Shown one piece after another: positions 32,818 to 53,538 of a stretch of 64,000 nucleotides of DNA. The notes beneath the pieces are model-generated. The model was given only the letters and a program-made list of their open reading frames with translations, did not search any database and was not told where the DNA came from. The position numbers and the translations under genes were made by a program. How positions within the stretch are numbered: position 1 is the first letter of the stretch; each line of letters begins with the position of its first letter. The stretch is taken from the NCBI GenBank assembly GCA_947474455.1, contig CANJIL010000002.1, forward strand, positions 1-64,000, given 5' to 3'. The DNA is from Hyphomonadaceae bacterium. Its GTDB lineage: Bacteria; Pseudomonadota; Alphaproteobacteria; Caulobacterales; Hyphomonadaceae.

Positions 32818-33240
32818 ATGCTCAACGCCTTTGTGAAGCACGTATCTGAGTCAACAGCGCTGCCGGCAGAACAGGCGGAAGCCGCCATCGGTATCGTGCT
32901 GAACGCGGCGGACCGGCAGGGCGCCCCTATCGCTGACGAGATTTTCGAGAGAATTCCCGGCGCTCGCACGCTGGCGGCCCGGATGGGGTCCCGTGTTGGC
33001 GCGGCCACCGGCGTGATCGCGCGCCTGATCGAACGCACCCCGGGCGGTCGTGTGGCCGTTGCGGAGCAGGTAATCCGCGACCTCCAGAAGCAGGGTCTCG
33101 GCAATAATGAAATCGGTCGCCTGTTCCCGGCGATCGGCAGGTACGCGGAATCCGCGTTTGGCGTGACCGGCATAGGCCATCTTGGCGACATGTTCGGAGC
33201 GGTGAATGCCCCGGCCAGTGGAGTGAGTAGCGTAGCCTAA
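32818..33240 (+). CDS. Small Ala/Gly-rich conserved protein
   Basis: A 140-residue cytoplasmic-looking protein, mostly helical, with no signal peptide. It starts MLNAFVKHVSESTALPAEQAEAAIGIVLNAADRQGAP, a pattern reminiscent of the DUF2267/YidB-like helical proteins, but I cannot confirm the family. ATG 32818 follows an AGGCCC stretch; an in-frame TTG at 32806 is an alternative. It ends just before a strong terminator (33266-33298). It is co-oriented with the dipeptidase, 54 bp away. Confidence 0.65.
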   Translation: MLNAFVKHVSESTALPAEQAEAAIGIVLNAADRQGAPIADEIFERIPGARTLAARMGSRVGAATGVIARLIERTPGGRVAVAEQVIRDLQKQGLGNNEIGRLFPAIGRYAESAFGVTGIGHLGDMFGAVNAPASGVSSVA

Positions 33241-33265
33241 CGACAGAGTAAGAGTTTCAAGCCTG

Positions 33266-33298
33266 GCGGGCGGCCTTCGGGTCGCCCGCTTTGGCTTT
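33266..33298 (+). terminator. Intrinsic terminator with a UUCG tetraloop
   Basis: Ten-base arms GCGGGCGGCC and GGTCGCCCGC (one G-U pair) close a TTCG tetraloop and are followed by TTTGGCTTT, 26 bp after the preceding stop. Confidence 0.85.
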
Positions 33299-33299
33299 G

Positions 33300-33502
33300 G
33301 ACTTTACAGGGCTGCCAGAACGCCAGTCTGACCTTTCAAAAAAAATCGCGATTGGGCTGGAACCGGTGAAGCGCAGTGGCGTTTTTCCTTCGATCTTCCC
33401 GGCGAGGCGGTCTTTTCCGTCCCCCCCGACCCCCGAGACTGCGCGCCGGGAAGATGCCAATCTTCGAAAGGTTAGCCCGCTCCGGAGCGGGCCTTTTGTT
33501 TT
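33300..33502 (+). ncRNA. Candidate structured small RNA
   Basis: A stretch between two terminators that has no convincing protein frame but strong pairing. ACCTTTC (33331-33337) is complementary to GAAAGGT (33466-33472). A 12-bp stem joins 33393-33404 with 33444-33455, extended by GCGGTCT/AGACTGC with one G-U pair. A competing hairpin GAAGAT-GCCA-ATCTTC lies at 33451-33466. A terminator with a T-tract closes the region. 6S RNA is one possibility. I found no clear promoter, and the boundaries are guesses. Confidence 0.4.
33475..33502 (+). terminator. Second intrinsic terminator, at the end of the RNA-like region
   Basis: A perfect palindrome with arms GCCCGCTCC and GGAGCGGGC is followed by CTTTTGTTTT. 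It is 186 bp beyond the first terminator, so it probably ends a separate transcript. Confidence 0.85.
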
Positions 33503-33506
33503 GCGG

Positions 33507-34376
33507 TCAGTGTTTGTCTGACTCAGGCAAGACTAACTGCAGGTCCGATGTGGGCGGCGTCACGATGATGTGCCCCGATATAGCGACCCGCATTGCGTCC
33601 GTCGGGGCCGCCATCGATGCCGAGACATAACCAGCCTGCGCCTTGACTGCGTCACCCGACTTCTCAGCTAGCGCCGCGCGACCAAGCGCGACGCGCCAGT
33701 CTTGTGGTGTGATGGCGGCCAGTTGGTCGAGGCGGTTCTTTGCTTCGTCCGGCTTCTTCGCATCAAGCAGGCAGAGTGCGTGGTCGCCCATTGCTGAGAG
33801 CGCCCAAGCATCCTTCGCAAGTTCTGCGGCCGCTGTGGTGCAGCGCACCGCGTTGATGCCAGCCAGTGAGGCTATCGAAACGGCGTTCCCCGGTTTCGAA
33901 GGCGCGGCGTCCACTGATCTTACGGGCGCGGCGTTGGACGCGCCTTTCATCAACGACGAACCTCCGCTAAGCACGGGGTCAGCAAGCTTTGCCTCGATCA
34001 GGACTGCGTTGCGATATATCACGGTTGTCGCGCTGCCAAAAGCCGCCCCCGACAGCGTCAACCTTCCTGAAGCGGCATCGACTTTCGTCAGCAGCGAACC
34101 GGAAGGAGGAGACAGAGCAAAGGGCGCGAGCGTCAGGCCATCGATCTCGACCGTCAGCGTTTCCCCAGCGATCTGCGCCGCCGCCGCGACAGGTTGCTGG
34201 GATAGCTTGACCAGGATCGATACGGTTTCAGCTTCCTGCGCGACTTCGATGTCGCCGATGCGCGCGGAAATGGGCGCCGGCGCCGGTGCGGATTGGGCGT
34301 GAGCGGGCGCGGCGGCTGCTAAGGCAGACAGCGCCGCGCTCGACAGGCAGACCGCAGGGAATAGCATCCGAAGCAT
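33507..34376 (-). CDS. Secreted protein with a C-terminal helical-repeat-like domain
   Basis: A 289-residue precursor with a signal peptide (about residues 1-27, ending PAHAQ). Residues about 40-140 look like a beta-rich domain (VSILVKLSQQP, LTVEIDGLTLAPF, LTLSGAAFGSATTVIYRN) of the type seen in AMIN domains. Residues about 180-270 look like TPR helices (AKDAWALSAMGDHALCLLDA, DWRVALGRAALAEKSGDAVKA). The combination suggests an envelope scaffold. The family assignment is by eye. It is divergent from the 34457 gene. Confidence 0.7.
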   Translation of the reverse strand: MLRMLFPAVCLSSAALSALAAAAPAHAQSAPAPAPISARIGDIEVAQEAETVSILVKLSQQPVAAAAQIAGETLTVEIDGLTLAPFALSPPSGSLLTKVDAASGRLTLSGAAFGSATTVIYRNAVLIEAKLADPVLSGGSSLMKGASNAAPVRSVDAAPSKPGNAVSIASLAGINAVRCTTAAAELAKDAWALSAMGDHALCLLDAKKPDEAKNRLDQLAAITPQDWRVALGRAALAEKSGDAVKAQAGYVSASMAAPTDAMRVAISGHIIVTPPTSDLQLVLPESDKH

Positions 34377-53462: not shown

Positions 53463-53538
53463 TGGCAGGGGCGGAGGGACTCGAACCCACGACACCCGGT
53501 TTTGGAGACCGGTACTCTACCAACTGAGCTACACCCCT
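53463..53538 (-). tRNA. tRNA-Trp (CCA anticodon)
   Basis: The - strand reads a cloverleaf: acceptor AGGGGTG paired with CGCCCCT, D-stem GCTC/GAGT, anticodon stem CCGGT/ACCGG with loop CTCCAAA (anticodon CCA, Trp), and T-arm GTGGG-TTCGAGT-CCCTC with one T-T mismatch. The 3' CCA is encoded (TGG at 53463-53465 on +). The 76-nt length is normal. A TATAAT lies about 54 bp upstream. Confidence 0.96.

Follow-up and report, generated by a model that had tools for sequence, protein, structure and literature searches.

GsrN (CCNA_R0081), the general stress response small RNA of Caulobacteraceae, is described as sigmaT-dependent, with a C-rich loop and G-rich targets, and its gene carries a consensus sigmaT site (PMC5869019). 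According to the available part of that report, gsrN typically lies near ecfG, nepR and phyR, an arrangement that is not universal, and it was detected by BLASTn in Caulobacteraceae alone, candidates from other orders having been picked by position and promoter (PMC5869019). CcnA of Caulobacter, as the accessible portion of its description has it, takes part in cell-cycle control, thought to run via CtrA, and pairs a CCCC loop with GGGG in mRNA leaders (PMC8959179). The Caulobacter small RNA CC3664 (Rfam RF01530), which, at a guess, could be the same RNA as CcnA, is a long hairpin with two C-tracts in its apical loop. We describe here a predicted small RNA of Hyphomonadaceae that most likely, as judged from sequence, belongs with GsrN by its wiring and its seed, and is built on a new scaffold. 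Hyphomonadaceae form an order of their own under NCBI taxonomy, and in the genome set that we searched they are grouped with a sister family (f2) which we take for Caulobacteraceae. No description of this RNA was found in the titles and abstract beginnings of the open-licence literature searched.

The window, a stretch of 64,000 nucleotides on contig C2 of a Hyphomonadaceae assembly (G000), contains a strong hairpin between the end of a plus-strand ORF at 33240 and the end of a minus-strand ORF at 33507. The original prediction had placed a structured RNA at 33300-33502; it had not seen the promoter box described below, which redefines the 5′ end and gives a predicted plus-strand transcript of 33390-33502. 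This segment has a predicted folding energy of -55.3 kcal/mol, as compared with -39.6 (sd 3.65) in shuffled versions (z -4.31, none of 200 as good); the fold of the whole 33300-33502 region is less unusual (z -2.70, three of 200 shuffles as good), and its minus strand does not stand out at all (z -0.19, 87 of 200). The main hairpin (33393-33455, -37.9 kcal/mol), delimited by the fold, by pair counts and by a covariance model, is predicted to consist of a 12-bp core stem, claimed from the outset and indeed present (33393-33404 with 33444-33455), an 8-bp upper stem (33407-33414 with 33435-33442) and a C-rich apical loop (33415-33434), in which we place a proposed seed, CCCCCCCGAC (33421-33430). 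The loop holds seven C in a row, which includes the six tandem C that mark GsrN, and it is predicted to be exposed, although in the window fold the three bases GAC of the seed pair weakly with GUC within the loop.

Downstream of the hairpin, a terminator scan detected a terminator hairpin with a T-tract (33475-33502), as had been predicted, and another terminator-like hairpin follows the upstream gene (33265-33290); such sites are, however, frequent by chance (three in 1.8 kb, as compared with 1.8, sd 1.5, in shuffles), and just 5 of 14 homologous loci of the window type showed a hairpin plus T-rich tail in a simple scan. The region is not literally devoid of a coding frame, as had been stated, since a mechanically called 84-aa ORF (33376-33630) overlaps it; length differences of 1 to 4 bases within that ORF in our alignment of homologues (A2) argue against its being coding. 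An Rfam search of the whole window returned a tRNA gene (53466-53538, minus strand) as its sole match at the curated threshold. The permissive scan of the region gave seven weak matches, none of them to 6S RNA. The best of these, anti-hemB, suits a hairpin-plus-terminator shape, and was rejected as sub-threshold (20.0 bits against a cut-off of 49.5, E 0.018).

Homologues of the region were sought with blastn, which yielded matches in 13 of 41 genomes, namely in 12 of the 15 genomes of the genus (our own counted) and in one genome of another genus. Thirteen of the 15 blastn rows entered alignment A2, without L015, which matches the terminator part alone, and L016, which is truncated where its contig stops. 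R1, a covariance model restricted to the hairpin and built from 13 sequences, has matches in all 15 genomes of the genus and, under stricter filters, in 14 of 398 genomes of the order, representing two of 59 genera. Its training sequences came from most genomes of the genus; an independent locus resembling that of the window was recovered in G006 with an E-value of 1.3e-16. Sorted by sequence, the hairpins fall into three types. Type A, which is alike to the window RNA, is present in 13 of the 15 genomes; type B has another stem and the same loop, and occurs in 8 of the 15 (seven of its nine loci, which include one outside the genus, were aligned as A5); G002 and G014 carry only type C, a third, weaker hairpin without the box. 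The type C loci (L030 on G002:C43 and L031 on G014:C4) have C-tracts and no EcfG box, and lie in genomes without NepR or PhyR matches. On seven type A contigs the neighbouring genes include some of those found in the window, namely a dipeptidase, a thiolase, an alpha/beta hydrolase or the TPR-like protein, as judged by eye from N-termini.

The predicted pairing is well preserved among the 13 sequences, with standard pairs in 94.3% of pair cells as compared with 42-52% in slid versions of the alignment. Covariation of the stems had been named as a check by the original prediction: the score of 0.300 exceeds that of all 500 shuffles (mean 0.229), but the five of 19 pairs that change on both sides were equalled in 24 of the 500 shuffles, and are thus not exceptional. 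Structural support is good, but it comes from related sequences. Good support for a real, separate small RNA gene at this locus, with a transcript predicted at about 33390-33502, comes from conservation, from stem changes under which pairing persists and from a conserved promoter box that belongs to the gene itself.

The box in question, GGAAC-N16-CGTT, occupies positions 33359-33383 and ends nine bases upstream of the main hairpin. GGAAC/CGTT is the promoter consensus recognised by EcfG, the sigma factor of the general stress response in alphaproteobacteria. Among 13 type A loci of the genus (L014, which has no box, was left out of the identity calculation, and L029 was added), the -35 element GGAAC (33359-33363) is present in every one, at 100% pairwise identity, and the -10 element (33380-33383) reads CGTT in 11 and CGTA in two, at 93%, with a spacer of 16 or 17 bases in all 13; an EcfG/sigmaT consensus promoter, one of the marks of GsrN, thus accompanies each of them. 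The apical loop is conserved at 89%, while the spacer (36%), the start region (33%) and the farther flanks (29-30%) have diverged. A run of eight A upstream of the -35 element (33338-33345) may be an UP-like element, and an A-rich stretch within 30 bases upstream of the box recurs in the 13 loci, as judged by eye (48% pairwise identity). By itself the box is weakly enriched in the window's own genome, with 70 sites as compared with 53 for the backward pattern.

The seed CCCCCCCGAC is exact in 11 of the 13 type A loci of the genus, the other two (L012 and L029) reading CCCCCCAGAC, and in eight of nine type B loci. The nine type B loci include four with GGAAC-N16-CGTT (three in the genus, one in G023) and two with GCAAC or GAAAC followed by N16-CGTT, for a total of six with an EcfG-like box; two have no such box, and one begins at a contig end. 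The type B locus of G003 lies about 260 bases before nepR, which is followed by an ECF sigma gene, with an HWE kinase gene on the other strand. G023, which belongs to another genus of Hyphomonadaceae, has a type A copy without the box. A separate locus of that genome (L179, G023:C1, from about 1772255) does have an EcfG box, and there the same C-rich loop is borne by an unrelated stem, after which comes a strong hairpin.

We then compared the window RNA with GsrN, with which it has in common an EcfG/sigmaT-type promoter, a length of about 100 nt and a C-rich loop, here predicted to be exposed. In the 398 genomes of the order we searched for an EcfG box with the seed core CCCCCCGAC lying 15-45 bases further on, a pattern chosen from the window and from the GsrN target table. 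It gave 72 matches in 62 genomes, as compared with four for the backward control (totals summed by hand). Of these genomes, ten are from the genus, of which 13 of the 15 genomes were sampled, and three are other Hyphomonadaceae, where the matches in G041 and G097 look like chance and that in G023 is real. The remaining 49 belong to the sister family, and in every one of these genomes one or more of the matches have a GsrN-like body; eight of them have a second body type too, and one has an odd match. That second RNA-like locus, exemplified by L180 (G137:C18, from about 186954), has a body unlike GsrN, and its motif is an EcfG box followed by GTCCGCCCC(T/C)CTACG-CCCCCC(C)GAC or a near variant.

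Thirty GsrN-like loci of the sister family were inspected, and G[TC]GGAGGCG precedes the seed in all of them; 18 have C7GAC, that is, CCCCCCCGAC exactly as in the window, and in 12 the run is one C shorter (C6GAC), so that the form common to all 30 is the 9-base core CCCCCCGAC. Structurally, they combine an outer stem with an inner hairpin. The bases after the seed (GACUUGA in most of these loci) complement entries such as UCAAGUCGGGGC in the published target table, as far as that source was available (PMC5869019), and on account of this fit, together with promoter and seed, we take the loci for GsrN. Their scaffold differs from that of the window RNA, and the covariance models find no match either way: R2, built from 20 of the 30 loci, recovers at 2.7e-16 a GsrN-like locus that was not among its training sequences, yet detects no type A or type B hairpin up to an E-value of 10, its one match to a type C hairpin having an E-value of 5.4, and R1 gives weak matches at GsrN-like places, at best E 0.91. 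R2 also had no match in 105 Hyphomonadaceae genomes, in a search that carried no positive control of its own. On these comparisons of sequence and structure, promoter and seed core are common with GsrN and the scaffold is not, and the window RNA is no demonstrable homologue of GsrN.

As regards the place typical of gsrN, near ecfG, nepR and phyR, it is contig C68 of our genome that carries phyR, nepR and an EcfG-type sigma gene, as opposed to C2 for the window RNA. Two divergent EcfG boxes on C68 (G000:C68:1331-1400), which precede the PhyR domains and nepR, suggest autoregulation of the stress locus. Among the loci compared, a position beside these genes was found for type B of G003 only, and one rough regular expression for an EcfG box with a C-tract found nothing beside NepR in 15 NepR loci. 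NepR was found in 12 of the 15 genomes of the genus, and PhyR matches below 1e-16 likewise in 12; those of G012 are weak, and G002 and G014 have none. The genomes of the genus without type A are exactly these two without any PhyR match, and they have no NepR match either; they may be sister species, in which case they would represent one loss event. G012, which is 77% complete, has type A together with a weak PhyR match and no NepR.

The interpretation that we favour, at a probability of roughly 75%, is that the locus encodes an EcfG-dependent, trans-acting general stress small RNA, which would act in a GsrN-like manner by pairing of its C-rich loop. Conserved in the sequence are the promoter box, the stem and the loop; phyR, nepR and an EcfG-type sigma gene reside in the same genome, and the same promoter-plus-seed combination recurs at the GsrN-like loci of the sister family. 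Against it stand the weak enrichment of the box by itself, the presence of type A in G012 without NepR and in G023 without the box, the two boxless type B loci, the scarcity of canonical terminators among type A loci, and the outcome of the target searches given below.

A different descent, with the same loop pairing, would follow if the RNA were a rewired relative of CC3664 brought under EcfG control. CC3664 loci do have the same topology and a similar loop, their long hairpin ending in an apical loop where two other bases separate C7 from C5-6; CC3664 ranks second by bit score among the Rfam matches in the region, and R1 gives weak matches at the place of the RNA in some CC3664 loci, the best being L095 (18.0 bits, E 0.019). 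But the Rfam match, at 15.3 bits and E 2.6, is far under the gathering score of 60, R1 scores as well at unrelated places (18.5 bits, E 0.013), and none of 20 CC3664 loci has an EcfG box in the upstream 110 bases, so we regard such a relationship as improbable. CC3664 itself had no match in our genome. Elsewhere, three contigs (G088:C28, G113:C41 and G123:C89) each carry two CC3664-like RNAs a few hundred bases apart. CcnA, which was compared by description only, resembles the window RNA in the reported pairing of its loop and differs in its assignment to cell-cycle control, as far as the accessible text goes (PMC8959179).

We consider it equally unlikely that the locus is a true, highly diverged GsrN orthologue with a rebuilt scaffold. 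The same promoter and seed core would fit such a descent, as would the type B locus adjoining nepR and ecfG in G003, which is the typical place of gsrN in the available text (PMC5869019). It is disfavoured by the failure of R2 to recognise types A and B while it recognises a non-training GsrN-like locus, by the position of the seed, which is in the apical loop of the window RNA and on the 5′ side below the inner hairpin in GsrN-like loci, and by the separation of type A from the stress genes in its own assembly.

The original prediction had also envisaged a switch based on alternative structures, and a cis-acting switch or attenuator of this kind now appears very improbable. The mutually exclusive hairpin, of 6 bp, is present in the window (33450-33465), but its -6.5 kcal/mol falls short of the -37.9 kcal/mol of the core by about 31 kcal/mol, and most homologues do not keep it, with an energy of 0 in seven of 14 and of -5 or below in two, the window included. 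The long outer complementarity (near 33330 with near 33467) draws on bases that precede the promoter box, and its exact match of 7 bp in the window shrinks to 4 or 5 bp in the other 13 homologues (raw lengths, with no chance level attached). Neither alternative pairing is thus kept, and the downstream gene is on the opposite strand, which leaves no gene for a switch to control in cis. What stands of the predicted structured RNA is the RNA gene itself, without its outer closing stem, the switch, or the suggested identity as 6S RNA (RF00013), a stable non-coding hairpin RNA whose long outline appears when 33300-33502 is folded whole; the chance of this last identity is negligible, as the locus has no 6S covariance-model match and the genome has a separate 6S match above the cut-off on another contig (G000:C20:13167-13325, 52.4 bits).

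Returning to the EcfG-dependent RNA, we may picture its action as follows. Upon stress, PhyR would be activated and would withdraw NepR from EcfG, which would then transcribe the RNA from GGAAC-N16-CGTT; the rigid hairpin would expose the C-rich loop with the seed CCCCCCCGAC, and the seed would pair with G-rich stretches of mRNAs and so alter how these are translated or how stable they are, in the manner of Caulobacter GsrN. The scheme is inferred as regards transcription and where it starts, control by EcfG, base pairing and all targets. The seed complement, GGGTCGGGGG, is not enriched in our genome (eight sites, one of which is the antisense strand of the RNA itself, as compared with nine for the control), and no clear leader site was seen among them. 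katG is present in all 15 genomes of the genus, but no conserved G-tract could be discerned by eye in its leaders (17 katG loci, some incomplete, with katG starts not mapped); no sign of the katG target site of GsrN was thus seen, which speaks against carrying the Caulobacter katG model over unaltered, and katG is not favoured as a target. Many genomes of the genus have a recurrent palindrome like TTGGAATTATTCCAA upstream in the katG leaders (e.g., L163, L164, L166 and L169).

A broader reading, which we offer tentatively and hold to be somewhat less probable than its converse, is that in this order the general stress response retains one post-transcriptional seed, CCCCCC(C)GAC behind an EcfG promoter, whereas the RNA bodies bearing it are replaced, these bodies being the GsrN scaffold in the sister family, types A and B in Hyphomonadaceae, and the further RNA type of the eight sister-family genomes. 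If this is true, the target code would predate the RNA by which it is read, or would not depend on that RNA. An RNA that joins this promoter and seed core to a different scaffold, in a family without matches to the GsrN model, would add to the post-transcriptional arm of the general stress response, and would allow a test of whether it is the seed or the scaffold that defines the regulon.
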